From Streptomyces rapamycinicus NRRL 5491 (lineage in GTDB: Bacteria; Actinomycetota; Actinomycetes; Streptomycetales; Streptomycetaceae), in assembly GCF_024298965.1 (NCBI RefSeq), contig NZ_CP085193.1:1488001-1552000 (forward strand): DNA of 64,000 bases, written 5' to 3'. Both the position numbers and the translations under genes were made by a program. This document shows, in pieces, positions 4,387 through 17,174 of this stretch (positions are counted from its first letter, which is position 1; each line of letters starts with the position of its first letter). Under the pieces are notes generated by a model. The model saw only the letters and a list, made by a program, of their open reading frames with translations. It was not told the origin of the DNA and did no database searches.

Positions 4387-5325
4387 ATGCGGATCGCGAT
4401 CATCGGCGCGGGCGGCGTCGGCGGATACTTCGGCGCGCGGCTCGCCGCCGCGGGGGACGAGGTCACCTTCGTGGCCCGGGGCCGCCACCTCGCGGCGATC
4501 CGGGAGAGGGGGCTGACGGTGCGCAGCCCGCTGGGGGATCTGCGGGTGCCGTCCGAGGCGGTCGTTCCGACGGTTTCCGACCTCGAGGCCCCGGACCTGG
4601 TCATGGTGGCGGTGAAGCTGTGGGACACCGAGGACGTCGCCCGGCAGCTGGCGCCCCTCGCCGAGGGCGGCGCCGCGGTCGTGTCGTTCCAGAACGGAGT
4701 CCAGAAGGACACGGAGCTGCGGCGCCATCTGCCCGCGGGGTCGGTCCTCGGCGGGGTCGGCTATATCTCGGCGTTCATCGAGGAGCCGGGGGTGGTGGTG
4801 CACAACGGCACTCTGCAGCGGCTGGTGTTCGGGGAGTACGACCGCAAGGAGTCCCCGCGCGCCCGCCAGTTCCTCGACCGCTGTCTCGCGGCCGGTGTCG
4901 ACGCGGAGATCAGCGGGGACATCGAGCGCACCATCTGGGAGAAGTTCGTCTTCCTGGTGGGCCTTTCCGGGACGACGTCGGCGGTGCGGCAGCCGATCGG
5001 CGTGGTCCGCGGGAATCCGGGGTCACGGGATCTGCTGCGCGATGTGATGCGCGAGGTGGTCGCCGTGGGACGGGCCAAGGGGGTGGACCTGGACCCCGGT
5101 TTCGCCGATGACCGGCTCGCCTTCTGCGACACGCTGCCCGCCACGATGACGTCCTCGATGCACAACGACCTCCTGCGCGGCAACCGCCTGGAACTGAGCT
5201 GGCTCAGCGGGGCCGTGGCCGGTCTCGGCGCCGAACTGGGGGTCGCCACCCCGCGCAACCGGGCCATCGCCGACATCCTCGCCCCCTACGCGCTGGGCGA
5301 TCCGGCCGAGACGGGCGGCGCGTAG
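4387..5325 (+). CDS. Ketopantoate reductase family oxidoreductase (PanE/ApbA-like)
   Basis: This is a 312-residue NADPH-dependent reductase of the 2-dehydropantoate 2-reductase fold. The nucleotide loop GAGGVGGYFGA is at residues 7-17. FQNGVQ in the middle and the conserved lysine in IWEKFVFL (about residue 175) match the family active site. True PanE makes pantoate for coenzyme A, but Streptomyces genomes carry several paralogues acting on other 2-keto acids. This copy is not beside panB, panC or panD but beside a dedicated regulator, which favours a specialised role (inference). GAGG precedes the ATG. A bidirectional hairpin follows the stop. Confidence 0.85.
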   Translation: MRIAIIGAGGVGGYFGARLAAAGDEVTFVARGRHLAAIRERGLTVRSPLGDLRVPSEAVVPTVSDLEAPDLVMVAVKLWDTEDVARQLAPLAEGGAAVVSFQNGVQKDTELRRHLPAGSVLGGVGYISAFIEEPGVVVHNGTLQRLVFGEYDRKESPRARQFLDRCLAAGVDAEISGDIERTIWEKFVFLVGLSGTTSAVRQPIGVVRGNPGSRDLLRDVMREVVAVGRAKGVDLDPGFADDRLAFCDTLPATMTSSMHNDLLRGNRLELSWLSGAVAGLGAELGVATPRNRAIADILAPYALGDPAETGGA

Positions 5326-5328
5326 CTC

Positions 5329-5372
5329 AGAGCCTGTGTCATATCCCCAGCCGGGGATATGACACAGGCTCT
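5329..5372. terminator. Bidirectional terminator, perfect 20-bp arms
   Basis: A perfect inverted repeat with 20-bp arms (5329-5348 and 5353-5372) and loop AGCC fills the gap between two convergent genes. Its last base enters the stop codon of the DUF2000 gene. There is no U-tract. The near-perfect symmetry is consistent with a shared terminator. Confidence 0.8.
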
Positions 5373-5836
5373 CAGCGCAGCAGGGGGAGCTTCCCGATGA
5401 GCCTGCTCACCTTGTTCCGCGGGCCGACGATGCTGACCGCGAGACAGTCGAGATCCTCGGTCTTGGTGCCTGCCAGGCTGTCGAGGTACTCGTCGTAGAC
5501 CCGTGAGGTCTGGGCCTGTCCGGGCATGTCGACGAGGAACAGGTCGTCCTTCTCGGCGGCCTTGGCCCGCAGCTCGCGCAGCGCCGCCGGCTCGGCCGCC
5601 AGGATCGAGCAGCCGGCCCACGGCAGCCCCGGGTGGCCGGCGCCGGAGCCGTCCGTGCCGTCCGGCCCCAGCAGCTCCGGCATCGCCCGGCCGACGGCGG
5701 CGGCCATGCAGGCCGCGGCGTTCACCGCCCGGCCCGCGGGCAGCTCCTCGTTCACGACGATCACCCACTTGAGCTTCGCCTGCCGGGTGGACTGATCGGT
5801 GCGTACGTCCTCGTCGGACAGCTGGGGAACGGACAC
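5372..5836 (-). CDS. DUF2000 family protein (peptidyl-tRNA hydrolase 2-like fold)
   Basis: The product is a 154-residue protein of the DUF2000 family, which structural work places in the Pth2-like fold; no enzymatic role is established. The N-terminal block KLKWVIVVNEELPAGRAVNA and the helix AACMAAAVG match the family. The C-terminal NKVSRLIGKLPLLR also fits. The GTG start is fixed by AAGGAG eight bases upstream, although the frame is open far beyond. The gene is divergent from an AsnC-family regulator with a 99-bp gap. Such pairing with Lrp/AsnC regulators suggests control by the neighbour (inference). Confidence 0.85.
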   Translation of the reverse strand: MSVPQLSDEDVRTDQSTRQAKLKWVIVVNEELPAGRAVNAAACMAAAVGRAMPELLGPDGTDGSGAGHPGLPWAGCSILAAEPAALRELRAKAAEKDDLFLVDMPGQAQTSRVYDEYLDSLAGTKTEDLDCLAVSIVGPRNKVSRLIGKLPLLR

Positions 5837-5935
5837 GAGCGGTACTCCTTGTCGATGGCTAATGTGGTGGACGGTACCCATCCATCCGAGCCGGAGCACG
5901 GCTAGCCGAATTTCCTCAGGCAAGGGAGCGCTTTC

Positions 5936-6430
5936 GTGGAACTTGATGCACTCGACCGTGCTCTTCTGCGGGAGCTGCAGAACGATGCACGGCAGACCAA
6001 TCGCGAGCTGGCCCTGCGCACGGGGGTCTCGCCGTCGACCTCCCTGGAGCGGGTCCGGGCGCTGCGGGAGCGCGGCATCATCAGCGGCTATCACGCCGCC
6101 GTCGACCTGGAGGCGGTCGGCCGCCCCGTGCAGGCGCTGATCTCGGTGCGGATCCGCCCGCCGTCCCGGCCGGTCATCGAGGGGTTCCGGGAATGGGCCG
6201 CCCAGCTGCCGGAGACCATCGGGCTGTTCGTCACCTCCGGCCCCCATGACTTCCTCATCCATGTGGCGGTGCCGGACACCAACGGACTCTACGCGTTCGT
6301 CATCGACCGCCTCACCGAGCGCCGTGAGGTGGCGGACGTGCAGAGCACGATGGTGTACGAACACGCCCAGCCGCGCTGTATCGACCCCGCCCCCGCCGAG
6401 CGCCCCGCGTCCTCCCGACGGAGGCGATGA
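5936..6430 (+). CDS. Lrp/AsnC family transcriptional regulator
   Basis: This is a 164-residue feast/famine regulator. The N-terminal AsnC-type helix-turn-helix (LDALDRALLRELQNDARQTN, recognition helix near 30-45) is followed by a RAM ligand-sensing domain (ALISVRIRPPSRPVIEGFRE ... TSGPHDFLIHVAVPD). Proteins of this family bind amino acids and form octamers. The C-terminus carries a short Pro/Arg-rich tail. The GTG start has AGGGAG upstream. The gene is divergent from the DUF2000 gene and convergent with the NCS1 permease, from which a strong hairpin separates it. Its targets are probably itself and the DUF2000 gene (inference). Confidence 0.9.
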   Translation: MELDALDRALLRELQNDARQTNRELALRTGVSPSTSLERVRALRERGIISGYHAAVDLEAVGRPVQALISVRIRPPSRPVIEGFREWAAQLPETIGLFVTSGPHDFLIHVAVPDTNGLYAFVIDRLTERREVADVQSTMVYEHAQPRCIDPAPAERPASSRRRR

Positions 6431-6455
6431 CGGGGAAAGGGCCAGGCGCGCCGAA

Positions 6456-6492
6456 GGGCGGGCGGCGTCGCCGTTCGCGACACCGCCCGCCC
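6456..6492. terminator. Bidirectional hairpin terminator
   Basis: Stem 6456-6470/6478-6492 (15 bp, one mismatch, 7-nt loop) lies between the convergent AsnC regulator and NCS1 permease genes. It is very GC-rich and has no U-tract, as is common in Streptomyces. Confidence 0.7.
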
Positions 6493-6510
6493 CGGTTCAT
6501 CGACGCGGTG

Positions 6511-7938
6511 TCAGGAGCCCGCCACCGCCGCCGTCTTCTCCTGCTGGGGCTCGGCCGTGCCGGGGGTGTCCCGCGCCCACAGCGGCCGCAGCCGGTAGGT
6601 CAGCAGATACAGCACCGCCGAGGCGCCCGCCGCGACGAACATGCTCAGATCGCCCGCGTGCGGATACGCCGAGGCGAACGCCCCGGTGTAGAGGTCGGAC
6701 TGCCAAAACGGCACCGAGGCCAGCACCCCGCCGACCCAGGCGACGAAGCCCCAGGAGAGCACCCGCCCGCGGTCGTACAGCTCGGCGATCCGGCTGCGGT
6801 CGGAGCGGCCGCCCAGGTGGTAGTCGAGCAGCAGCACGGTGGCGAACGGCGCGATGAAGTACGCGGTGAGGTTGAGGAACACCGAGAACTTGTCCTCGAC
6901 CCCGGAGTGTCCCCACAGGCTGATCCCATACGCCAGCGCGCAGATGAGCGTGACGGCCTGGGTCCGGGTGACCGGCACCTTCAGCGTCTGGACGGAGATC
7001 GCGCCGCCGTAGACGTTGAGGAAGTTCTGCGCGAGCGCGGAGAGCCCGATGGCGATCAGCGCGGGGATGGCGAACGGCCCGGTCAGCTGGTGCAGGGCGG
7101 TGATGGAGTCGGTGCTGGTGGCGTTGGAGCCGAGCAGCACACCGAGGATGCCGAGCCAGCAGATGGTGACGAAGTTGCCGAGCCTGGTGAACCAGGCGGT
7201 GCGCTTCACCACGCTCGGCGAGTCGGGCAGATAGCGCGAGTAGTCCGAGGCGAACGGGGCCCAGGCGACGAGGAAGGAGAGGAACCAGCCGCCGAAGGTG
7301 ATCCAGCCGCCGGTGGAGCCGACGAAGTCCGCCGCCTTCGGATCGGCGTCGAAGGTGCCCGCGCCCCGTACCAGGGCCACCACCGTGATCATCACGAACA
7401 GCGGGGTGAGGACGTAGGTCAGCACCCGCTGCAGGAAATTGATCATGTTGTAGCCGTAGATGGACACCACCAGCTCGACCAGGGTGAGTGCCAGTCCGCA
7501 GACCCAGAAGGGCAGATGGGTCAGCTCGGCGATGGCCTTGCCGCCGAGGATCACGGTCACGGCGGCCCAGCCGACCCCGGCGAACACGTTGATGTACGCC
7601 ACCGGCAGGAAGTTGCCGAAGAAGCCGAGCGGGCCCCGCGCCTGGATCTGCTGGGGCACCCCCAGCCGTACGCCCATCCGGGACATCACGGCCATCAGCA
7701 GCGAGCCGAGACCCGCGCCGACCACGATGGCGGCGACGGCGGCGCCGAAGCTCAGGCCCAGCCCGACCGCGCTGAACCCGAGCAGGATGATGGGGAAGTT
7801 GAGACCGGCGGCGAACCAGACGAAGAACTGCGAACTGGGCTTGCCGTGCCGCTCGTTGTCGGGGATGTGGTCGACCCCGAAGGGCTCCACCTTGGTGACC
7901 GCGCTGCCGTACACCGGCGCCGTGTCATCGTGGGTCAT
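6511..7938 (-). CDS. NCS1 family nucleobase/cation symporter (CodB-like permease)
   Basis: This is a 475-residue membrane transporter of the NCS1 family (purines, pyrimidines, hydantoins, thiamine-like compounds). About 12 transmembrane segments are visible. NCS1 hallmarks include the N-terminal VEPFGVDHIPDNERHGKPSS, WFAAGLNFPIILLG in helix 1, and FASDYSRYLP in the middle. AGGAG precedes the ATG. It lies 81 bp downstream of the flavin-reductase fusion on the same strand, so the two are probably cotranscribed from the divergent promoter. Its place in a monooxygenase/hydrolase/dehydrogenase cluster suggests it imports that pathway's nitrogen heterocycle or related small molecule (inference). 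The substrate cannot be read from the sequence. Confidence 0.92.
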   Translation of the reverse strand: MTHDDTAPVYGSAVTKVEPFGVDHIPDNERHGKPSSQFFVWFAAGLNFPIILLGFSAVGLGLSFGAAVAAIVVGAGLGSLLMAVMSRMGVRLGVPQQIQARGPLGFFGNFLPVAYINVFAGVGWAAVTVILGGKAIAELTHLPFWVCGLALTLVELVVSIYGYNMINFLQRVLTYVLTPLFVMITVVALVRGAGTFDADPKAADFVGSTGGWITFGGWFLSFLVAWAPFASDYSRYLPDSPSVVKRTAWFTRLGNFVTICWLGILGVLLGSNATSTDSITALHQLTGPFAIPALIAIGLSALAQNFLNVYGGAISVQTLKVPVTRTQAVTLICALAYGISLWGHSGVEDKFSVFLNLTAYFIAPFATVLLLDYHLGGRSDRSRIAELYDRGRVLSWGFVAWVGGVLASVPFWQSDLYTGAFASAYPHAGDLSMFVAAGASAVLYLLTYRLRPLWARDTPGTAEPQQEKTAAVAGS

Positions 7939-8019
7939 GGGCGTGCTCCTGGGACGGGAGGAGTGGGCGTCAGGGGGTGACGGGGGGCCGGTGGCGCCGC
8001 GGATCGGGGCGGCGGTGTC

Positions 8020-8937
8020 TCACCACGGCAGCGGCGCGGTCTGGGAGATGTCGAAGAAGCCACCGCCGCTGTAGACCAGCGGGGCCAGCTCCTCATGGCG
8101 GGCGGACACCACCCGGCCGGTGAAGACGGTGTGGCTGCCGGCCTCCAGCCGCTCGCCGATCTCCACCTCGAGCTGGGCGCAGGACCGGTCGAGCAGCGGG
8201 ACGCCGAACTCGCCGGGGGTCCAGGACAGCCCGGCGAACTTGTCGTCCGCCTTGGAGGCGAAGGTCTTGGCCACATCGAGCTGGCCGGCGGCGAGGATGT
8301 TGATCCCCAGATGGCTCGCCCGGTGCAGCGCGGGATGGGTCGTGGAGCTGCGCTGCACGCAGACCAGCACCATCGGTGGATCCAGCGAGATGCTGGCGAA
8401 CGCGTTCACCGCCAGCCCCCGGGGTTTGCCGTCGTCGTCGCAGGTCACGACGGTGACTCCGGTGATGAACTTGCGGTGCACGCCACGGACCACATCGGCG
8501 TCCACGGCCGCCTGCTGGGTGGTGGTGATGATCCCGAGCGCCTCCAGCAGCTGGCGCGGGTCCCAGGTCACCCACTCCTCGCTGACCACACCGTGGTCGA
8601 AGCGGGTGAAGGTGGCGCCGGAGACCTCGACCGGCCTGCCGGTGGCCGGGACCCCGAGGAAGTCACCGGTGTGGCTGCCGGTGCTGCGCCAGCGGATCGC
8701 CAGCGATTCGCCGTCCTCGACGATCTCCTCGATCTCGGTGCGGAGATCGGGAAACGCCCGGCGGATGGCGCGGATGGACTCCTTGAACTGCTCCCGGTCC
8801 TGGGGGGCCGCGGCGGGCCCGCGGCGGCGTACATAGGCGGGGCCGAGCAGCTGGTCGAGCGCGTCGACCTCGCCCCGGTCCCAGACCGCCTGCCAGGTGG
8901 AGCGGAGGCGGGCGGTGCGGTCAAGAGTGTGCGTCAT
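8020..8937 (-). CDS. SnoaL-like (NTF2-fold) domain fused to NAD(P)H:flavin reductase
   Basis: The product is a 305-residue two-domain protein. Residues 1-130 are a SnoaL/ester-cyclase-type NTF2-like domain (LRSTWQAVWDRGEVDALDQL; IAIRW-like strand; GVVSEEWVTWD). Residues about 147-305 are an FMN-binding flavin reductase domain (VHRKFITGVTVVTCDDDG, LAVNAFASISLDPPMVLVCV, HLGINILAAGQ). The reductase half would supply FMNH2 to the divergently encoded luciferase-like monooxygenase, making a two-component system. The NTF2 half could bind substrate or an unstable oxygenated product (inference). A ribosome site GAGGGAAG precedes the ATG, and a TTGACA-N17-TACGGT promoter lies upstream. The domain fusion is not the usual architecture of either family. 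Confidence 0.88.
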   Translation of the reverse strand: MTHTLDRTARLRSTWQAVWDRGEVDALDQLLGPAYVRRRGPAAAPQDREQFKESIRAIRRAFPDLRTEIEEIVEDGESLAIRWRSTGSHTGDFLGVPATGRPVEVSGATFTRFDHGVVSEEWVTWDPRQLLEALGIITTTQQAAVDADVVRGVHRKFITGVTVVTCDDDGKPRGLAVNAFASISLDPPMVLVCVQRSSTTHPALHRASHLGINILAAGQLDVAKTFASKADDKFAGLSWTPGEFGVPLLDRSCAQLEVEIGERLEAGSHTVFTGRVVSARHEELAPLVYSGGGFFDISQTAPLPW

Positions 8938-8959
8938 GACGTCTTCCCTCAGTCAGCTC

Positions 8960-8972
8960 TTGTATGGCAGAG
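8960..8972. promoter_or_regulatory. Operator-like half site over the leftward +1
   Basis: TTGTATGGCA (8960-8969) repeats exactly the left ten bases of the palindrome ahead of the GntR gene (13924-13933). It lies just downstream of the leftward -10 box, around the predicted transcription start, where a repressor would act. Confidence 0.5.
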
Positions 8973-8973
8973 G

Positions 8974-9002
8974 ACCGTAGAAAGGCCATCGACGACTGTC
9001 AA
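8974..9002 (-). promoter_or_regulatory. Leftward promoter for fusion reductase-permease unit
   Basis: Read on the minus strand: TTGACA (9002-8997), 17-bp spacer, TACGGT (8979-8974). This is a near-ideal vegetative (HrdB-type) promoter with a start predicted near 8967. Confidence 0.7.
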
Positions 9003-9082
9003 CACCCTGGGACAGATGAGCCGAGAAAGTTCCGGGTGCCCACTAAAGCCACAGGTCAAGGTTGTTTTCCTGAGGCCGGCCC

Positions 9083-9111
9083 TTGACGGGCCCGATATGG
9101 ACTCCTAGCCT
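9083..9111 (+). promoter_or_regulatory. Rightward promoter for monooxygenase operon
   Basis: TTGACG (9083-9088), 17-bp spacer, TAGCCT (9106-9111), predicted start near 9118. The promoter overlaps the longest open frame upstream of the monooxygenase, which excludes the upstream start codons and supports ATG 9158. Confidence 0.7.
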
Positions 9112-9114
9112 CCC

Positions 9115-9126
9115 TGCCATGGCACA
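9115..9126. promoter_or_regulatory. Operator-like palindrome over the rightward +1
   Basis: TGCCATGGCA (9115-9124) is a perfect 10-bp palindrome sitting on the predicted rightward start. ATGGCACA (9119-9126) matches exactly the right half of the palindrome before the GntR gene (13928-13935). Confidence 0.45.
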
Positions 9127-9157
9127 GCGTGAGCCGGAAGAACAGGACGGACGCTGC

Positions 9158-10297
9158 ATGCGCTTTTCGATATTCCACAACCTCGGTGCCCCGGGCCGTC
9201 TCGGTGAGTACGCCGAAGTCATGGACGAAGCCCGCGAGTTCGCGGTCACCGCGGACCGGGCGGGCTTCTGGTCCACCTGGTACACCGAACACCACTTCGG
9301 GCACGAGGCGATCGAGATCACCCCGAACCCGGTGCTGATGGGGGCGGACATCGCCGCCCGTACCGAACACATCCGGATCGGCCAGGCGGCCTCGATCGCC
9401 ACCTTCTGGCATCCGCTGCGGCTCGCCGAGGACATCGCGATGCTCGACCAGCTCTCGGGGGGCCGGGTCGAGGTCGGCCTCGGCCGGGGGCTGTACGGCC
9501 GTGAGGCGCTCAACCTCAACGCCCTGGCCGATCCGCGCGACCAGGAGCAGAACCGCGCCCTGTACGACGAGACCGTGGAGGTCCTGCGCAAGGCGTGGAG
9601 CGGCGAGTTCTTCTCGCACCAGGGCCGGTTCTACGAGTTCCCCTCCCCCGGGGTGAAGTGGAACCACCCCCTCTCCCCCGCCACCCCGGAGTACACCGAC
9701 GCGGGTGTCATCACGAAGATGCAGGTCACGCCGTTTCCTTTGCAGCGGCCGCACCCTCCGCTGTGGCAGGTGATCGACAGCCCCCGCTCGATCAAGTCCG
9801 CCGCGGCCGACGGTGTCCAGGGGCTCTTCTGGCTCCCTCCGGTCTCCGCGCTCAAGGAACGGTTCGAGCTCTACCGGGACACCGCGAGCCAGGCGTCCGG
9901 GCGCGAGTACGCGCTGGGCGAGGGCATCGGCCTGGTGCGCGATGTGTATGTCGCCGACACCATGGAGCAGGCACGCGCCGAATTCGAAGAGGCGGTGATG
10001 ACCACCTACCGGTGGATCATGCACTGGCGGGGGCTGTCCAACCTCATGGAGGCGGGCGAGGAGCTCACCGACGCCCATGAGCTGTCCTTCGACTTCCTCC
10101 AGGGGCGCAATCTGCTGGTCGGCACCCCCGAGTATGTCTCGGAGAAGATCGCCGAGCTGCGCGACGAGGTGGGCCTGGAACATCTGCTGCTGTGGACCAC
10201 CCACCCCGGTCTGCCGCACCGCAACGCCATGCGCAGCCTGGAGCTGTTCGCCGAGAAGGTCATGCCGCAGTTCACCACCGGTGGCGGTCATGGCTGA
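9158..10297 (+). CDS. LLM-class flavin-dependent monooxygenase
   Basis: This is a 379-residue member of the bacterial luciferase-like superfamily, which uses reduced flavin and O2. The TIM-barrel start MRFSIFHNLGAP, the signature YTEHHFGHEAI and the nucleotide-site stretch LSGGRVEVGLGRGLYGRE are visible. Together with the divergent flavin reductase it forms a plausible two-component monooxygenase (FMNH2 type rather than F420 type). It heads an operon with overlapping junctions: the stop overlaps the next start by 8 bp. Within this family, members linked to NCS1 permeases and hydrolases oxidise or cleave N-heterocycles (RutA in uracil breakdown, PyrA-type enzymes in pyridine breakdown). A ring-cleavage or N-dealkylation role is therefore inferred, not shown. 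Confidence 0.88.
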   Translation: MRFSIFHNLGAPGRLGEYAEVMDEAREFAVTADRAGFWSTWYTEHHFGHEAIEITPNPVLMGADIAARTEHIRIGQAASIATFWHPLRLAEDIAMLDQLSGGRVEVGLGRGLYGREALNLNALADPRDQEQNRALYDETVEVLRKAWSGEFFSHQGRFYEFPSPGVKWNHPLSPATPEYTDAGVITKMQVTPFPLQRPHPPLWQVIDSPRSIKSAAADGVQGLFWLPPVSALKERFELYRDTASQASGREYALGEGIGLVRDVYVADTMEQARAEFEEAVMTTYRWIMHWRGLSNLMEAGEELTDAHELSFDFLQGRNLLVGTPEYVSEKIAELRDEVGLEHLLLWTTHPGLPHRNAMRSLELFAEKVMPQFTTGGGHG

Positions 10298-10898
10298 GGC
10301 ACAGCTGCGCAAGGTCGTCACCGTCGCCGATGAGCTGCTGCTGGAGCTCGGCCGCCCGGTCGCGGCGCCGGTGCGCCGGGTCGCGGCGGCCGCGGTGATC
10401 AGCAACCCCTGGGCCGGCGGCGGCTTCGTCGCCGACCTGGGGCCCGAGGTCGAGCGGATCGCACCGGGGCTGGCCCGGCTGCTCACCGACCGGATCAGCG
10501 AGGCGCTGGGCGGGGTCGACCGGATCGAGTCCTTCGGCAAGGCCGCGATCGTCGGTCTGGACGGGGAGATCGAGCACGGCGGCGCGCTGATCCACACCCC
10601 GTTCTTCGGCAATGTCTTCCGCGAGCTGACCGAGGGCACCTCGATCATCGTCTTCAGCGACGACCGGCTTCCGGCCGGTGAACCGCTGACCGTGCCGCTG
10701 TGGCACAAGACCGCGGCCGCGACCCGCTCGCACTACCAGACCTGCCAGATCCGTATCCCCGACGCGCCCCGCCCGGACGAGATCGTCGTCATCGCGGCGG
10801 GGGCGTCCGGCCCCCGCCCGAACGCCCGAATCGGGGACCGCGCCACCGACCCCCTCATCCGCCTCGCCGATCTGGACGACCTGGAGACCGTGACATGA
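10290..10898 (+). CDS. AA_synth (DUF1185) family protein, copy 1
   Basis: The product is a 202-residue protein of the amino acid synthesis (AA_synth, formerly DUF1185) family, whose reaction is not established. Shared motifs with the next gene are KVVT/KIIT at the N-terminus, ISNPWAGGGFVADL, FGKAAIVGLDGEIEHGGALI and RSHYQ. The start overlaps the monooxygenase stop (ATGGCTGA) and the end overlaps the start of copy 2 (ATGA), implying translational coupling and perhaps a hetero-oligomer. The strictly conserved EHG/ALIH segment is a likely active-site region. It could be a hydrolase or isomerase for the ring-opened product (inference). Confidence 0.8.
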   Translation: MAEAQLRKVVTVADELLLELGRPVAAPVRRVAAAAVISNPWAGGGFVADLGPEVERIAPGLARLLTDRISEALGGVDRIESFGKAAIVGLDGEIEHGGALIHTPFFGNVFRELTEGTSIIVFSDDRLPAGEPLTVPLWHKTAAATRSHYQTCQIRIPDAPRPDEIVVIAAGASGPRPNARIGDRATDPLIRLADLDDLETVT

Positions 10899-11446
10899 AC
10901 ATCCGCAAGATCATCACCTTCACCGAGGACATCCACAGCGAGGGCGGCCGCCCGGTGGACCCGCCCGCCCGTACGGCCGTGGTGCTCGCCGTCATCGAGA
11001 ACCCCTGGGCCGGTCAGGGCTTCGTGGCGGATCTGCTGCCCGGGATCGACGAGGTGGCGCCGAAGCTGGGCGAGCTGCTGGCGCCCCGCGTGGTCGAGGC
11101 CCTGGGCGCGCCGGTGGAGGCGTACGGGAAGGCCGCGATCGTGGGTCTCGACGGGGAGGTCGAGCATGGCTCCGCGCTGATCCACACCCTCAAGTTCGGC
11201 GACCACTTCCGCCGCGCGGCGAACGCCACCACGCTGCTCCCGGCCGTGGAGAAGCGGGCCGCCGCGGGCACGGTCTTCGACATCCCGCTCAAGCACATCA
11301 CCGACGCCACCATCCGCTCGCACCACCAGAGCATCGAGGTGCGGGTGGCGGACGGGCCGCGCGCCGACGAGATCGTCGTCGGGCTGGCGGCGGCCGCCCA
11401 GGGCCGCCCGCAGGCCCGGCTGGCGCCACTGTCGACGGAGCGGTGA
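10895..11446 (+). CDS. AA_synth (DUF1185) family protein, copy 2
   Basis: The product is a 183-residue homologue of the preceding protein. It has IENPWAGQGFVADL, YGKAAIVGLDGEVEHGSALI, and RSHHQSIEVRVADGPRADEI near the C-terminus. It is shorter at the C-terminus and differs in the central segment (LKFGDHFRRAANATTLLP against TPFFGNVFRELTEGTSIIVF). The two copies are diverged, not recent duplicates. The start is inside the stop of copy 1 (ATGA). Tandem pairs like this suggest a complex of two related subunits or two successive steps (inference). No signal peptide is present, so the protein is cytosolic. Confidence 0.8.
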   Translation: MNIRKIITFTEDIHSEGGRPVDPPARTAVVLAVIENPWAGQGFVADLLPGIDEVAPKLGELLAPRVVEALGAPVEAYGKAAIVGLDGEVEHGSALIHTLKFGDHFRRAANATTLLPAVEKRAAAGTVFDIPLKHITDATIRSHHQSIEVRVADGPRADEIVVGLAAAAQGRPQARLAPLSTER

Positions 11447-11453
11447 GCAGGCG

Positions 11454-12392
11454 GTGAGTGACATGGGCAGGTCCGAGGCGGGTGCCCCGGCGCGCGTCCC
11501 GGCCTCCCGGGCCGGGGCCCCGGTGGCGCTGAGCCACGAAGCGCACGGCGACGGCCCGGAGCTGGTGTTGCTGCACGGCGTCGGCCTCGACCGCCGGATG
11601 TGGGACCGGTGCCTCCCGGCCCTCGCCGCCCGGCACCGGGTGACGCTGGTCGATCTGCGCGGCCACGGCGCCTCCCCGGCCGCGGCGGCCGGGGTGTCGC
11701 TCGCCGAGCTGGCCGCCGATGTCGGGGCGCTGCTGAGCGGCCCCACACATGTGGTCGGCTTCTCGCTCGGCGCCCTGGTCGCCCAGCGGCTGGGTCTCGA
11801 CCGGCCGGAGCTCACCGCCTCGCTCACCCTGGTCAGCTCGGTCGCGGGCCGGTCGGAGGAGGAACGGGCGGCGGTGGCCCGCCGCCAGGAGCTGGCCGCC
11901 CAGGACTTCGGGGCGGCCGCGTGGGCGGCGGTCGACCGCTGGTTCTCGCCCGCCTGGCGGGCCCAGGACCCCGAGCCGGCGCGGCAGGTGCTCGATACGC
12001 TGCTGGCCAACGACCGGGCCTCCTACCTGGCCTGTTACCGGATCTTCGCGACCGCCGACACCGCGCTGTGGCGGTGGCTGCCCCGGATCGCCGCGCCCAC
12101 CGTGGCGGTGACCGGTGAGCGGGATCCCGGCTCGACCCCGGCCATGTCGCACCGGCTGGCCGAGCGGATCCCGGGCGCCCGGGCGGTGATCGTGCCCGGC
12201 GCCCGCCATCTGCTGCCGCTGGAATGCCCCCGGGAACTCGCCGACGTGATCCTCGCCCAGACCGGAGGCCACGCGGAAAACCACGCCGGAAACCGGACCG
12301 GAAGCCACGCCGGAAACCACATCGGAACCCACGGAAGCCATACCGGAACCCACCCCGGAACCCCCACCGGACAGGAGTCCCACCGCTCATGA
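11454..12392 (+). CDS. Alpha/beta hydrolase with His/Gly/Thr-rich C-terminal tail
   Basis: This is a 312-residue alpha/beta-fold hydrolase. The oxyanion strand ELVLLHGVGLDRRMW, the nucleophile Ser104 in VGFSLGA, the acid in GERDPGS and the His in ARHLLPLE are all present. It resembles 3-oxoadipate enol-lactonase or RutD-type hydrolases. The last 45 residues (roughly 268-312) are a degenerate repeat rich in His, Gly, Thr and Asn, encoded by imperfect 12-15-bp repeats. Such a tail is not part of the fold; it may be a metal-binding or purely expanded segment. GTG 11454 follows the AA_synth stop by seven bases, and the end overlaps the aldehyde dehydrogenase start (ATGA). The role is probably hydrolysis of an ester, lactone or amide intermediate. 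Confidence 0.86.
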   Translation: MSDMGRSEAGAPARVPASRAGAPVALSHEAHGDGPELVLLHGVGLDRRMWDRCLPALAARHRVTLVDLRGHGASPAAAAGVSLAELAADVGALLSGPTHVVGFSLGALVAQRLGLDRPELTASLTLVSSVAGRSEEERAAVARRQELAAQDFGAAAWAAVDRWFSPAWRAQDPEPARQVLDTLLANDRASYLACYRIFATADTALWRWLPRIAAPTVAVTGERDPGSTPAMSHRLAERIPGARAVIVPGARHLLPLECPRELADVILAQTGGHAENHAGNRTGSHAGNHIGTHGSHTGTHPGTPTGQESHRS

Positions 12393-13876
12393 ACCCCCTG
12401 CCGCGCCATGACCACTACATCGCGGGCGAGTGGACCGCCCCCGCCGAAGGCGGCTACTTCGCGAGCGTCAACCCGGCCACCGCCGAGCCCTGGTACGAGG
12501 CGGCGCGCGGCACCGCCGCCGATGTGGACCGTGCGGTGGGCGCCGCCCGCACCGCCTTCGAGGATCCGCGCTGGCGCGATCTGAGCCAGACCCGGCGCGG
12601 CCGGCTGCTGCGGAACCTGGGCGATCTGATCGGTGAGCACGCGGAGCGGCTGGCCCGTACCGAAACCCTCGACAACGGCAAGCTGCTGCGCGAGATGCGG
12701 GCCCAACTCGCCGGGCTGCCCGAGTACTTCCACTACTACGCGGGACTCGCCGACAAGATCCAGGGCGAGGTGATCCCCGGGGCCGGCCGCGAGCTGCTCA
12801 ACTACACCCTGCGCGAACCGGTGGGCGTGGTCGGCGCCATCACCCCCTGGAACTCCCCGCTGCTGCTCACCACCACCAAGCTGGCCCCGGCCCTGGCCGC
12901 GGGGAACACGGTGGTGGTCAAGCCCTCGGAGCACACCTCGGCCTCGCTGCTGGCGCTCGCGCCGCTCTTCGAGGAGGCGGGGTTCCCGCCGGGAGTGGTC
13001 AATGTGGTCACCGGGTACGGGCCGGAGGCGGGCGGGCCGCTGACCGAGCACGACGGCGTGTCCAAGGTGACCTTCACCGGCTCCAGCGGGACCGGCCGCC
13101 GGATCGCCCGCATCTGCGCCGACCGGCTGATCGGCTGCACCCTGGAGCTCGGCGGGAAGTCGCCCAACATCATCTTCCCGGACGCCGACCTGGGCTCGGC
13201 CGCCATGGGCGTGATCGCGGGCATCTTCGCGGCCGCGGGCCAGACCTGTGTGGCGGGCAGCCGGGTGCTGGTGCACCGGGAGGTGTACGACGAGATCCTG
13301 GAGCGGGTGACGGCGCGGGCGGCCACGATCCGCATCGGCGATCCGCTGGCGGAGACCACCGAGCTCGGCCCGCTCGCCATCGCCGAACAGCTGGAGAAGG
13401 TCGAGTCGTACGTCGAGCTGGGGCAGGCCGAGGGCGGAAAGGTGGTCTGCGGCGGCAGGCGTCCCGAGACCGGTCTCGACGGGTACTTCTACTCCCCCAC
13501 CGTCTTCACCGGCACCGACAACGGGATGCGGATCTGCCAGGAGGAGATCTTCGGGCCGGTCGCGACCGTCATGCCCTTCGGCTCCGAGGAGGAGGCGCTG
13601 GCCATCGCCAACGACTCCGCGTACGGCCTGGCGGCGGGCGTGTGGACCCGCGATGTGAACCGGGTGCACCGGATGGCCGCGCGGCTGGAGGCCGGGACGG
13701 TGTGGGCCAACACCTATCGCTCGATGTCGCCGATGTCGCCCCGGGCCGGGTTCAAGACCAGCGGGATGGGGACCGAGCACGGCACGGAGGTCATCCGGGA
13801 GTACACCCGGCTGAAGAGCGTCTGGATCAACACCAGCGAGGAGCCCGCCGGGGATCCGTTCATCCTGAGGTCCTGA
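12389..13876 (+). CDS. NAD(P)-dependent aldehyde dehydrogenase
   Basis: This is a 495-residue class 3-type aldehyde dehydrogenase. Catalytic Cys287 lies in GQTCVAGSR, general base Glu253 in LELGGKSPN, and the Rossmann turn in FTGSSGTGRRIA; the N-terminal block reads HYIAGEWTAPAEGG. It oxidises an aldehyde to the acid, most likely the last step before central metabolism in this cluster. AGGAG (12373-12377) precedes the ATG. The longer upstream frame runs through the repetitive tail of the hydrolase gene and is rejected. Translation is coupled to the hydrolase by an ATGA overlap. The substrate (for example a semialdehyde) is inferred from context only. Confidence 0.93.
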   Translation: MNPLPRHDHYIAGEWTAPAEGGYFASVNPATAEPWYEAARGTAADVDRAVGAARTAFEDPRWRDLSQTRRGRLLRNLGDLIGEHAERLARTETLDNGKLLREMRAQLAGLPEYFHYYAGLADKIQGEVIPGAGRELLNYTLREPVGVVGAITPWNSPLLLTTTKLAPALAAGNTVVVKPSEHTSASLLALAPLFEEAGFPPGVVNVVTGYGPEAGGPLTEHDGVSKVTFTGSSGTGRRIARICADRLIGCTLELGGKSPNIIFPDADLGSAAMGVIAGIFAAAGQTCVAGSRVLVHREVYDEILERVTARAATIRIGDPLAETTELGPLAIAEQLEKVESYVELGQAEGGKVVCGGRRPETGLDGYFYSPTVFTGTDNGMRICQEEIFGPVATVMPFGSEEEALAIANDSAYGLAAGVWTRDVNRVHRMAARLEAGTVWANTYRSMSPMSPRAGFKTSGMGTEHGTEVIREYTRLKSVWINTSEEPAGDPFILRS

Positions 13877-13921
13877 ACTCCTGAGCTCCTGAGATCCCCG
13901 GCCCCTGGACCGAGGAAGGGT

Positions 13922-13938
13922 TGTTGTATGGCACAACA
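13922..13938. promoter_or_regulatory. GntR/FCD-type operator
   Basis: TGTTGT-ATGGC-ACAACA is a 6-bp-arm palindrome containing TTGT-N5-ACAA, the shape of known FadR/FCD-subfamily operators. It lies upstream of the GntR promoter. Its two halves recur at the divergent promoters 5 kb away (8960 and 9119). Confidence 0.6.
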
Positions 13939-13955
13939 TATCTGCGTTCCCGCAG

Positions 13956-13985
13956 TTGACGGGAGGCAATGGCCACACCTAGGGT
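13956..13985 (+). promoter_or_regulatory. Promoter giving leaderless gntR transcript
   Basis: TTGACG (13956-13961), 18-bp spacer, TAGGGT (13980-13985). The predicted start falls at about 13991-13994, that is at the ATG, so the transcript would be leaderless. Confidence 0.55.
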
Positions 13986-13993
13986 CCCGTGCC

Positions 13994-14674
13994 ATGCAAC
14001 GACCCACAGGGAAGCGGCTTCAGCAGACCAGCATGCAGGCGAGGGTCGCCGAAGAGCTGCGGCAGATGATCATCAGTGGTGAGCTGCCGCCCCGCTCCAG
14101 CCTCTCCGAGATGGCGCTGTCCGAGACCTTCGGCGTCAGCCGGACGCCCATCCGCGAGGCCCTCAAACAGCTCCAGATCGAGGGCTTGGTCGAGGTGCGG
14201 CCACGGGTCGGCACATTCGTCGCCGTACCGTCCCGGCGCGAGCTCACCGAGCTGTTCCAGATGAAGGAGCTGCTGGAGGGCGCCGCCGCCCGGCTGCTCG
14301 CCTTCCGCGGGAACGTACCGGAAGTGGAGCGGCTCGAGGCCAATATGAAGGCGGCCGACGCGTCCGTCCGGGACGGCGACGCCGAGCAGTACGCGGCGCT
14401 GGTCCACGAGTTCCACGATCTGATCGTGGTGGGCGCGGACAACAGCAAGCTGGAGGCGCACTACCGCACCCTGATGAACCAGCTGGCCTACGCCCGGCTG
14501 GTGCGCACCTCGCTGTCCCGGCCCGGTCGGCTGGACGAGTCCGACGACGAGCACCATCGCGTCCTCAATCTGATCCAGGCCAAGGACGGCGACGGCGCGG
14601 AGCGGGTGATGCGGGAGCATGTGCGGATGAGCCACCAGGCCCTGATGGCGGGCATGGACGAGCGCCGGGCCTGA
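13994..14674 (+). CDS. GntR family (FadR/FCD subfamily) transcriptional regulator
   Basis: This is a 226-residue regulator. It has an N-terminal winged helix-turn-helix (VAEELRQMIISGELPPRSSL, recognition helix around FGVSRTPIREALKQL) and a C-terminal all-helical FCD domain. The metal/ligand residues of the FCD domain are visible in VHEFHDLIV, DEHHRVLNLI and MREHVRMSH. FCD regulators sense carboxylic acids and usually repress their catabolic cluster. ATG 13994 is chosen because TTGACG-N18-TAGGGT ends eight bases before it. An alternative start at 13928 has a good Shine-Dalgarno (GGAAGGG) but lies inside the putative operator. Probable repressor of the 6.5-14.7 kb cluster. Confidence 0.88.
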   Translation: MQRPTGKRLQQTSMQARVAEELRQMIISGELPPRSSLSEMALSETFGVSRTPIREALKQLQIEGLVEVRPRVGTFVAVPSRRELTELFQMKELLEGAAARLLAFRGNVPEVERLEANMKAADASVRDGDAEQYAALVHEFHDLIVVGADNSKLEAHYRTLMNQLAYARLVRTSLSRPGRLDESDDEHHRVLNLIQAKDGDGAERVMREHVRMSHQALMAGMDERRA

Positions 14675-14888
14675 CAGGGCGGTTCACTCGTGGGTGCCGG
14701 AGCGCAGCCGTCCGGACACACTGAGCACACACGGCCCCGGGACCTACCGGGGGCCCGGACGGCGATCCTGTCGTACGTTGGCAGAAGACCCAGATGGCGG
14801 CCCACATCCCGCGCGGGGTCGTGACCGGCATGGTCTTGAGGAAACCGGGCTCGGGGAGAACCGATCGCCGAAGACCAGGACGAAGACC

Positions 14889-17174
14889 ATGAACGATGTG
14901 CGCAGACGTACGGTGCTCGCCGCCGCCGGGGGGACGGCCATCGCGGGCAAGGCCGCGGCCGCCCATGCCCATGCCCCGCCCGCCCCCTCCGCCGACCGGG
15001 CCCGGCCGGGGCGGGAGCCCGGCCCGTACGAGACCAGGATCCAGGCCCTGATGGCGCGGATGTCCGTCGACGAGAAGCTCGGCCAGCTCCAGCAGCTCGC
15101 CTGGACCGGCGCCACCGGGCCGGGTGGCGGGCAGACCGCCGCCGCGGAGAAGGCTGCCCGCAGGGGCAGGCTCGGCTCCGTGCTCAACATCTACGGGGCC
15201 CGTACCACCAACACGCTGCAGCGGATGGCCGTCGAGGAGTCCCGGCTGGGCATTCCGCTGATCTTCGGGCTCGATGTCATCCACGGCATGTGGACCACCT
15301 TTCCCATCCCCCTCGCCCAGGCCGCCGCCTTCGATCCCGCGGTGGCCGAGTGGGACGCGGAGGTGTCGGCGCGGGAGGCCCGCTCCAACGGGGTGCACTG
15401 GGCGTTCTCGCCGATGATGGACGTCACCCATGAACCGCGCTGGGGGCGGATCGCCGAGGGGGACGGCGAGGACCCGTATCTGGCGGCGCGGCTCGCGGCC
15501 GCCAAGACCCGCGCCTACCAGGGCGACGACCTGCGCTCCCGGCGCCACCTCGCGACCTGCGCCAAGCACATGATCGCCTACGGGGGCGTCGAGGGCGGCC
15601 GCGACTACAACACGGTGGATGTCTCCGAGGCCCGGCTGCGCAACTTCTACCTCCCCCCGTTCCGGGCGGCCCTGGACGCCGGGGTGGCCACGGTCATGGC
15701 GAGCTTCAACACCGTCAGCGGGGTCCCCGCCCACGGCTACCGGCATGCGCTGACCGAGATCCTCAAGGAGGAGTGGGACTTCGGCGGCTTCGTCGTCAGC
15801 GACTACAACGGCGTTCAGGAAATGATCGTCCACGGCTACGCCGCCGACCGCTCCGACGCCGCCCGGCTGGCCTTCAACGCCGGGATCGACATGGAGATGG
15901 CCAGCACCACCATCAACGAGTACGGCAAGCGGCTGCTGCGCAGAGGTGAGATCACCACCGAGCGGCTGGACGACGCGGTGGCCCGCATCCTGCGGCTGAA
16001 GTTCCGGCTCGGGCTCTTCGAGCACCCCTACGCGGACGAGGACACGGCGATCGCCGGGCCCACGAAGGCGTCCCGGGCGGCGGCCCGCGAGGCGGCCGGC
16101 CGCACCATGGTGCTGCTCAAGAACGAGAAGTCCACGCTCCCGCTGGACAGATCGGGCTCCATCGCCGTCGTCGGCCCCTTCGCCGACTCCACCGATCTGC
16201 GCGGCTCCTGGGCCGGGACCTGGGCCGAGAAGTTCCGCCCGGTCACCGTGCTGGACGCGGTGAAGGACGCGGCGCCGAAGGCCCGGATCAGCCATGTCGA
16301 GGGCGTGGACGCGTCCGGCCGGAACACCCGGGGCATCGCGCGGGCGGCCTCGGCGGCGAGAGCGACCGATGTGACCGTGGTGGTGGTCGGGGAGGCGGCG
16401 ACGCTCAGCGGGGAGGCGTCCGTACGCAGCGACCTGGGGCTGCCCGGCCGTCAGGAGCGACTGATCTCCGCGATCGCGGACACCGGCGCGCCGTTCGTGG
16501 TGGTGCTGCTCAGCGGACGTCCGCTGACGATGGCGGGCTGGCTGGACCGCACACCCGCCGTGCTGCAGGCGTGGCATCCGGGGATCGAGGGCGGCAACGC
16601 CGTCGCGGATGTGCTCTTCGGCACCGTGAACCCCGGTGGCAAGCTGCCCGTGACCTTCCCGCGCACGGTCGGGCAGATCCCCGTCTACTACAACCACGAG
16701 AACACCGGACGCCCCTACGACCGGGCCAACCACTACACCTCCAAGTACCTCGACCTGGCCAACGGGCCCCAGTTCCCCTTCGGCCACGGCCTCAGCTACA
16801 CCACCTTCGACATCGGCGAACCCCGGCTCAGCGTCAGCCGCGTCCGGGCCGAGGCGCTGCGCAAGGGCGACACCGTCGAGGTCGCGGTGGCGGTGCGCAA
16901 CACCGGGCGGCGCAAGGGCGATGAGGTGGTGCAGCTGTACATCCGCGATCCGGTGGCGAGCATCGTGCAACCGGTGCGCAGGCTCAGTGGCTTCCGCCGG
17001 GTCAGCCTCGGCCCCGGCAGGGCCACCACGGTCAGGTTCCGGCTGAGCGCCGAGGAGCTGGGTTTCTGGACCCAGGATCCGCACGGCCGGTTCCTGCTCC
17101 AGAAGGGCGAGATCCGGGTCTTCGCGGGCAACAGCTCCCTGGCCGAGCGGGGCCGCACCCTCACCATCACCTGA
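14889..17174 (+). CDS. Tat-exported GH3 beta-glucosidase/beta-xylosidase (BglX-like)
   Basis: This is a 761-residue secreted glycoside hydrolase family 3 enzyme that removes terminal beta-linked glucose or xylose. A twin-arginine signal (RRRTVLAAAGG, then Ala-rich) occupies residues 1-35. The GH3 N-domain follows, with the KH motif in CAKHMIAYGG and the nucleophile Asp305 in VVSDYNGV. Then come the GH3 C-domain (AVVGPFADSTDLRGSW; GKLPVTFPR) and a fibronectin-III-like C-terminus (VAVRNTGRRKGDEVVQLYI). Longer frames upstream lack family similarity. Its role alongside the GH1/GH16 genes further on is probably beta-glucan oligosaccharide breakdown (inference). The 214 bp before it show no clear operator. 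Confidence 0.93.
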   Translation: MNDVRRRTVLAAAGGTAIAGKAAAAHAHAPPAPSADRARPGREPGPYETRIQALMARMSVDEKLGQLQQLAWTGATGPGGGQTAAAEKAARRGRLGSVLNIYGARTTNTLQRMAVEESRLGIPLIFGLDVIHGMWTTFPIPLAQAAAFDPAVAEWDAEVSAREARSNGVHWAFSPMMDVTHEPRWGRIAEGDGEDPYLAARLAAAKTRAYQGDDLRSRRHLATCAKHMIAYGGVEGGRDYNTVDVSEARLRNFYLPPFRAALDAGVATVMASFNTVSGVPAHGYRHALTEILKEEWDFGGFVVSDYNGVQEMIVHGYAADRSDAARLAFNAGIDMEMASTTINEYGKRLLRRGEITTERLDDAVARILRLKFRLGLFEHPYADEDTAIAGPTKASRAAAREAAGRTMVLLKNEKSTLPLDRSGSIAVVGPFADSTDLRGSWAGTWAEKFRPVTVLDAVKDAAPKARISHVEGVDASGRNTRGIARAASAARATDVTVVVVGEAATLSGEASVRSDLGLPGRQERLISAIADTGAPFVVVLLSGRPLTMAGWLDRTPAVLQAWHPGIEGGNAVADVLFGTVNPGGKLPVTFPRTVGQIPVYYNHENTGRPYDRANHYTSKYLDLANGPQFPFGHGLSYTTFDIGEPRLSVSRVRAEALRKGDTVEVAVAVRNTGRRKGDEVVQLYIRDPVASIVQPVRRLSGFRRVSLGPGRATTVRFRLSAEELGFWTQDPHGRFLLQKGEIRVFAGNSSLAERGRTLTIT

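Follow-up and report, generated by a model that had tools for sequence, protein, structure and literature searches.

Plants and plankton contain trigonelline (N-methylnicotinate) and its isomers as osmolytes, and the closest described parallel to the gene cluster treated here is the Tgn system, which degrades trigonelline in Acinetobacter. Its chemistry, described by Perchat et al. in 2018, reportedly involves cleavage of the C5-C6 bond, formamido intermediates, and the release of methylamine, formate, and CO2; on this basis, we tentatively assign TgnA to TgnE to locus positions. The Rut pathway (RutA-G) also combines a luciferase-like monooxygenase (LLM), a flavin reductase, an alpha/beta hydrolase, and NCS1-like uptake. 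According to one report (PMC8269262), the pathway begins with ring opening by TgnA/TgnB. Another report (PMC7913881) compares HcdD, a DUF1185/AA_synth protein, with its homologue TgnF, which stimulates the TgnE-dependent oxidation of succinate semialdehyde; no such stimulating effect could be shown by its authors for HcdD. HcdD belongs to the 7-hydroxycoumarin cluster of Pseudomonas mandelii 7HK4, which resembles ours as a ring-opening catabolic cluster with an AA_synth protein but differs in its chemistry of reduction and lactone opening, with no LLM named there (PMC7913881). Here, we compare with these systems an eight-gene cluster from a 64,000-nt stretch of the Streptomyces rapamycinicus NRRL 5491 genome (NZ_CP085193.1, positions 1,488,001 to 1,552,000), hereafter the window.

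With moderate confidence, we read this cluster as an operon for Tgn-type breakdown of an N-methylpyridinium betaine, with trigonelline the most likely candidate, in which the oxygenase is not orthologous to TgnA. By sequence comparison, catabolism of some N-heterocycle is highly probable and an N-methylpyridinium betaine as substrate is probable, and the chances that this substrate is trigonelline itself seem about even. Judged from the sequences, TgnA's place is held by an LLM of another clade that is not a TgnA orthologue. A limited literature search gave no account of an actinobacterial cluster of this kind or of the form found here, although one may exist in print. A Tgn-type gene set with an oxygenase from another LLM clade would be a variant on a known pathway.

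Gene set of the window and the trigonelline-type locus

The original prediction described eight genes with the domains below in two divergent units, and gene positions and Pfam matches bear this out:

6511-7938, minus strand: NCS1-family permease, predicted substrate importer (PF02133, E 6.9e-34)
8020-8937, minus strand: fusion of a SnoaL/NTF2-like domain and a flavin reductase, predicted TgnB role (PF07366 + PF01613)
9158-10297, plus strand: form I LLM-class flavin monooxygenase, predicted ring-opening oxygenase in the TgnA role, not a TgnA orthologue (PF00296)
10290-10898, plus strand: AA_synth paralogue 1, TgnF-like (PF06684, E 1.6e-59)
10895-11446, plus strand: AA_synth paralogue 2, TgnF-like (PF06684, E 1.2e-61)
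11463-12392, plus strand: alpha/beta hydrolase, predicted TgnD role in N-formyl enamine hydrolysis (PF12697/PF00561); a GTG start at 11454 is possible
12389-13876, plus strand: aldehyde dehydrogenase (ALDH), predicted TgnC role (PF00171, E 1.8e-174)
13994-14674, plus strand: GntR-family FCD regulator, predicted to bind operator-like sites (PF00392 + PF07729); an ATG start at 13928 is also possible

The minus-strand unit reads from the SnoaL-flavin reductase fusion into the permease, and a gap of 220 nt separates it from the plus-strand unit. The tight coupling originally proposed holds for LLM and AA_synth1 (8-nt overlap) and for AA_synth1/AA_synth2 and hydrolase/ALDH (4-nt ATGA overlaps), but not for the regulator gene, which, with its start at 13994, lies 117 nt after ALDH with an operator-like palindrome between them. 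The 12.47-Mb host genome (one contig) has just two AA_synth genes, both in this cluster. An Rfam scan of window positions 6000-15000 matched no family.

As a stand-in for the tgn locus of A. baylyi ADP1, we used an Acinetobacter locus (L097); the LLM encoded there shares 93-94% identity with three database clusters that carry the name "flavin-dependent trigonelline monooxygenase oxygenase component [Acinetobacter]". This locus encodes a GntR-type regulator, AA_synth, an alpha/beta hydrolase, a flavin reductase, an LLM, an ALDH, an NCS1 carrier, and a gene resembling succinate-semialdehyde dehydrogenase (SSADH); every enzyme role in it except SSADH has a relative among the window proteins. Window AA_synth paralogues 1 and 2 are 47% and 42% identical to its AA_synth protein and class as TgnF-type, and the window ALDH classes as TgnC-type, with 47% identity to the ALDH beside the LLM and 33% to the SSADH-like enzyme. 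The LLM and flavin reductase pair of a Tgn-type cluster is present, and the two reductases share 39% over the flavin-reductase part. The regulators share 35% over 79 aa, and both loci encode an alpha/beta hydrolase and an NCS1 carrier. The window cluster differs in its doubled AA_synth gene, its two divergent units, its lack of SSADH, and its reductase, which has an N-terminal SnoaL domain where that of Acinetobacter has an unassigned C-terminal part instead. It differs above all in its LLM, which, at 27% identity and in a separate clade, does not qualify as a TgnA orthologue. Since the trigonelline-type locus contains AA_synth, this family is a normal Tgn-type part.

Despite the shared part list, a Rut-like route for pyrimidines or for another lactam or hydantoin is very improbable. 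With NCBIfam models, membership was rejected: RutF scored 74.7 bits against a cut-off of 254.75 and RutD 54.8 against 238.5, RutA was not among the best 25 of the 28 families matched by the window LLM, and no RutB- or RutC-type gene lies within the cluster. The original prediction is partly supported. Its self-contained oxidative catabolic cluster stands, as do a probably nitrogen-containing substrate and the functions of uptake, oxygenation with flavin, oxidation of an aldehyde, and hydrolysis. Its claim that the set matches neither Rut nor the actinobacterial pyridine ring-cleavage clusters holds for Rut but overlooked the closer Tgn parallel.

Conservation of the cluster and exchange of its oxygenase

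Searching genome contigs with AA_synth2 alone gave 345 relatives, of which we kept the best 80 loci with flanks of up to 9 kb and scored their gene content, including the form counts below, by tblastn with the window proteins. The sample is rich in close Streptomyces, to which the loci nearest to the window by AA_synth2 belong, and its named loci represent nine families (Streptomycetaceae, Pseudonocardiaceae, Thermomonosporaceae, Micrococcaceae, Microbacteriaceae, Mycobacteriaceae, Nocardioidaceae, Kineosporiaceae, and Nocardiopsidaceae). The full core (SnoaL-flavin reductase, AA_synth1, AA_synth2, hydrolase, ALDH, FCD regulator, and an LLM) is present in 73 loci; four others lie on short contigs (L013, L015, L050, and L055), and three (L039, L051, and L060) miss one or two parts. 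AA_synth is rare in the host's family, occurring in 6 of 200 genomes, its own included. A second sample was drawn with the LLM in the same genus, because sampling across the phylum was too sparse (2 of 396 genomes at E 1e-100, own included). At E 1e-60, a window-type LLM is carried by 15 of 392 genomes, again counting the host, with 16 matches, since one genome has two. AA_synth1 adjoins the LLM in all 15 matches outside the own genome, as does AA_synth2 in 14 of them, the contig of the fifteenth (L117) ending there; the two samples may partly cover the same species. A distant actinobacterium (LLM identity 53%) has LLM, one AA_synth, and hydrolase in a row. The grouping is a conserved actinobacterial cluster, not a product of chance, and its synteny in other genomes bears out the original prediction, which a lack of such synteny would have refuted.

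SnoaL and flavin-reductase parts are fused in 33 of the 80 loci, separate neighbours in 38, and apart in one; four loci have the reductase only and four have neither. Because they are fused or neighbouring in most loci, the two parts probably work together. Examples of separate genes are L042:6016-6444 and L034:4282-5243.

The loci fall into two forms. In form I (29/80), a window-type LLM precedes AA_synth1; in form II (49/80), a different LLM stands, as a rule, after ALDH. One locus (L063) combines form I with a remote LLM, and another (L051) has neither LLM type. Labels drawn solely from intact open reading frames leave three loci without a form. Form II clusters, such as that on plasmid pDCT5 of Arthrobacter dokdonellae (L091, outside the 49), have the same kinds of regulator, reductase, AA_synth pair, hydrolase, and ALDH as the window, but their TgnA-type LLM lies downstream of ALDH, usually after a tautomerase gene, BCCT (betaine/carnitine/choline family) carriers often replace NCS1, and some include SSADH and flavin-supply genes. 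The form II LLM shares 51% identity with the TgnA-type protein of Acinetobacter, and that of pDCT5 has relatives of 50-52% in proteobacterial clusters of Leisingera (L095), Sinorhizobium (L096), and Acinetobacter (L097), which also contain AA_synth, hydrolase, reductase, and ALDH.

For phylogenies, we drew rows from the window, the 80 loci, and plasmid loci, adding relatives from a protein search for the LLM tree and excluding rows without an intact or long enough open reading frame; this left 37 rows for LLM, 38 for ALDH, and 44, 43, 32, and 31 for further trees, among them those of the hydrolase and AA_synth. The form I LLMs make up one clade (support 99/99) apart from form II and TgnA (100/100), and other LLMs of unrelated contexts stand beside form I with weak support (86/79). 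Eight residues (W41, P56, F83, W84, Y113, H154, V265, and F372 in window numbering) are common to form I and TgnA/form II and occur in at most two of six other LLMs, which is suggestive only. The remainder of the cluster does not follow the clade split of the LLMs, so that, on these phylogenies, the oxygenase type is exchanged. In the ALDH tree, form I as a single clade is rejected (approximately unbiased test, p-AU 1.85e-7; log-likelihood 234 lower) and the LLM type must have switched at least three times: L035 (form II) falls inside a form I trio (L034/L036/L038, 100/100), and L058, with a form I LLM and a retained tautomerase, falls inside form II. Three loci (L030-L032) have NCS1, reductase, AA_synth pair, and FCD regulator 74-91% identical to those of the window, together with the hydrolase, ALDH, and LLM of form II. 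Grouping their hydrolase with form I is rejected (p-AU 1.9e-79), and their AA_synth1+2 group with form I (99/94). Because L039, which has a form II LLM in a scrambled gene order, lies on the form I side of the hydrolase tree, form II and L030-L032 do not make up one hydrolase clade, although a single clade is not rejected (p-AU 0.122).

In Streptomyces sp. Ru73 (L029), NCS1, the AA_synth pair, and the FCD regulator make up a shell of form I from which the form I LLM is missing. Directly adjoining it on the opposite strand is a set of form II, made up of LLM2, tautomerase, ALDH, hydrolase, and AA_synth2.

Control region and a putative operator motif

Three promoters, those of the two divergent units and of the regulator gene, would be governed by the FCD regulator through sites of the type CTKNYATGSCANNG, in response to an inducer. 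The candidate elements are as follows:

8959-8972, plus strand: putative operator CTTGTATGGCAGAG, on the downstream side of the -10 box of the promoter that serves reductase and permease
8974-9002, minus strand: promoter read by eye, -35 TTGACA (9002-8997), 17 nt, -10 TACGGT (8979-8974)
9083-9111, plus strand: promoter read by eye, -35 TTGACG (9083-9088), 17 nt, -10 TAGCCT (9106-9111)
9114-9127, plus strand: putative operator CTGCCATGGCACAG, which reads CTTGCATGGCACAG in some relatives; it lies close to where the oxygenase transcript is predicted to begin
13921-13938, plus strand: palindrome TTGTTGTATGGCACAACA read by eye, putative operator upstream of the regulator gene
13987-14000, minus strand: further motif copy GTTGCATGGCACGG, at the regulator start

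Two boxes, CTTGTATGGCAGRG and CTKSCATGGCACAG, are common to 13 aligned form I gaps, and each box of the divergent gap stands after a -10 box read by eye. CTTGTATGGCAGAG is present in these 13 Streptomyces gaps, with one base changed in L028. Across the aligned gaps, the plus-strand promoter and the -35 of the minus-strand promoter are largely conserved; a stricter promoter scan found neither of the two and reported none in the scanned region. Motifs resembling the palindrome at 13921-13938 precede FCD genes in relatives.

A motif scan of the window found two sites where 0.58 are expected by chance, and 10 of 100 shuffles reach two, so the case for an operator rests on conservation and not on rarity. 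The motif was trained on the window and 12 form I Streptomyces, and one position of CTKNYATGSCANNG was relaxed from G to S once hits in the tested loci were known, which makes the following locus test partly fitted. In the 49 form II loci, 52 of 58 exact matches lie near cluster gene starts, which occupy 6.6% of the sequence, and 30 loci have such sites; in the 12 form I loci outside the training set, it is 18 of 19 matches and 10 loci. Sixty permuted patterns gave a mean of 0.23 (form II) and 0.1 (form I) such matches and a maximum of 4. As a sequence motif, the operator is thus common to many loci of both forms, which suggests, where it is shared, a common inducer.

Substrate clues, rival readings, and proposed route

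Carriers and neighbouring genes bear on the substrate. Exactly one of NCS1 or BCCT is found in 71 of the 80 loci (NCS1 only in 32, BCCT only in 39), three have both, and six have neither; two of the carriers were assigned to BCCT by family scan. Methylamine-assimilation-type genes are nearby in 13 loci. All 13 have MgsC/GlxB-like genes, and 11 of them also have a GMAS-like type III glutamine-synthetase gene within 9 kb. The closest solved relatives of the synthetase are named "Type III glutamate--ammonia ligase" and "Glutamate--methylamine ligase". In six of eight genomes chosen as six with a nearby gene and two without, it is a single copy (E 1e-80) located at the cluster. A form I cluster with NCS1 (L141) has the methylamine-type set beside it and an adjoining gene that resembles monomeric sarcosine oxidase and scores 253.4 bits with the N-methyl-L-tryptophan oxidase model (cut-off 257). 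These neighbours suit methylamine as a product.

Unmethylated pyridines (pyridine, nicotinate, or picolinate) would be opened in a similar way in the Pyr pathway of Arthrobacter sp. 68b, which also has two-component LLM ring cleavage, ALDH, hydrolase, and SSADH. Eight of the 80 loci (L045, L056, L057, L058, L075, L078, L085, and L087), all with NCS1, have an isochorismatase-like hydrolase gene within 9 kb, whose product might turn a pyridine carboxamide into the acid. We nevertheless consider such a substrate improbable, given the loci in which BCCT stands in for NCS1 and the methylamine-type genes beside clusters of both forms.

Several observations weigh against trigonelline degradation by the window cluster. 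Its LLM may have a different substrate, being of low identity to the TgnA-type protein and closer to other LLMs (33%). The hydrolase and NCS1 carrier are just 28% (same Pfam family) and 25% identical to those of Acinetobacter, and no SSADH (TgnE) gene lies in or beside the cluster. The small tautomerase gene occurs in 42 of 49 form II loci versus one of 29 form I loci, and S. samsunensis holds both forms (L014 and L056), which therefore may not be redundant. The AA_synth proteins of L030-L032 can be grouped with form II without firm rejection (p-AU 0.057), and no exact operator match was found in 19 of the 49 form II loci, among them most Micrococcaceae. A close GMAS-like gene is absent from the own genome (best 36%) and from those of L020 and L033, nor do L011-L017 or L019-L024 have one within 9 kb, so that the methylamine clue fails for the nearest relatives of the window. 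SSADH-like places elsewhere in the own genome reach 59% and 51% identity; the closest (1184750-1186213) has a TGA inside the match.

Form I might instead open another N-methylpyridinium compound by the same chemistry, such as homarine (N-methylpicolinate), N-methylisonicotinate, or 1-methylnicotinamide, and the different substrate would then call for a different oxygenase. The separate LLM clade, the failure to find a tautomerase in 28 of 29 form I loci, and the two forms in one genome fit this proposal; the missing SSADH would be in keeping with a route whose end product is glutamate or 2-oxoglutarate, and it has been argued that TgnA/TgnB is unlikely to act on homarine for steric reasons (PMC8269262). 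Yet four observations point to one substrate for both forms: the operator motif occurs in each, form II FCD regulators outside L029-L032 are 50-71% identical to that of the window, NCS1 is 76-84% identical to the window's in eight form II loci, and the LLM type has repeatedly been exchanged between clusters that are otherwise alike; we therefore regard a homarine-type substrate as unlikely, though less so than an unmethylated one. Slightly more credible, but still improbable, is the broader proposal that the form I LLM is a second, independently recruited opener of pyridinium betaines. Form I clusters would then encode a pathway not described before, its substrate being homarine or a related isomer beyond the reach of TgnA, and the tandem AA_synth proteins would act as a hetero-oligomeric, RutC-like helper.

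For the favoured trigonelline-type route, we infer substrate, reaction order, and the function of every protein from sequence, with chemistry taken from the Tgn pathway. The NCS1 permease would import the zwitterion, the fused reductase would make reduced flavin, and the LLM, with O2, would cleave the C5-C6 bond directly to an N-formyl-N-methyl-enamine aldehyde or its lactol. ALDH would oxidise this aldehyde to the acid, and the alpha/beta hydrolase would release formate, methylamine, CO2, and succinate semialdehyde from the N-formyl enamine. The two AA_synth proteins may then help the last steps, as TgnF reportedly stimulates semialdehyde oxidation, perhaps by faster decarboxylation or by resolving an imine or enamine, and a semialdehyde dehydrogenase encoded elsewhere would finish the route. 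The order first proposed, uptake and then ring opening, is retained, but aldehyde oxidation likely precedes hydrolysis. If correct, the scheme would give a function to a soil-actinobacterial cluster whose listed protein names are just generic, would show that two distinct branches of the luciferase-like family have come to serve the key ring-opening step, and would offer a direct test of the role of the misnamed "amino acid synthesis" family.

RidA/RutC proteins belong to the same fold class as Bacillus chorismate mutase. The window AA_synth paralogues are 48% identical to each other, and both reach the PF06684 score. In an alignment by eye, they keep the ExEH motif, His98, His144, Arg172, and Arg176 of BB2672, the position of His174 being Gln or Asn; because these conserved residues are kept, neither paralogue looks dead. 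The AA_synth fold is described as Bacillus chorismate mutase-like in a structural report (PMC2954203). From the fold class shared with RidA/RutC, we guess that AA_synth acts on imine/enamine or beta-formyl-acid intermediates. The view that AA_synth proteins replace the usual amidohydrolases does not hold: they occur together with an alpha/beta hydrolase in the Acinetobacter locus, so the hydrolase role would fall to the latter, and the published role of TgnF is to stimulate succinate-semialdehyde oxidation (PMC7913881). AA_synth as a hydrolase was rejected, since a separate alpha/beta hydrolase accompanies it in that locus, in 28 of 29 form I loci, and in all 49 form II loci.

The window hydrolase has a C-terminal tail rich in His, Thr, and Gly, which derives from a tandem repeat at 12263-12371 with periods of 12, 24, and 33 nt. 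The protein has 309 aa, compared with 249-354 aa in 11 other Streptomyces form I loci examined and 250, 285, and 259 aa in L033, L034, and L049. The window flanks (4387-6430 and 14793-17174) encode a 2-dehydropantoate-reductase-like protein, an Lrp-type regulator, and a protein judged by eye to be a GH3-type glucosidase. The same genes flank 7, 8, and 9 form I loci, respectively, all from close Streptomyces, and by this recurrence they bound the cluster. Flavin-supply genes (riboflavin kinase, NUDIX, and RibA/RibB types) stand beside LLM oxygenase genes in several unrelated records (L091:3924-4873, L130:8220-9603, L131:9231-9872, and L033:11763-12521).

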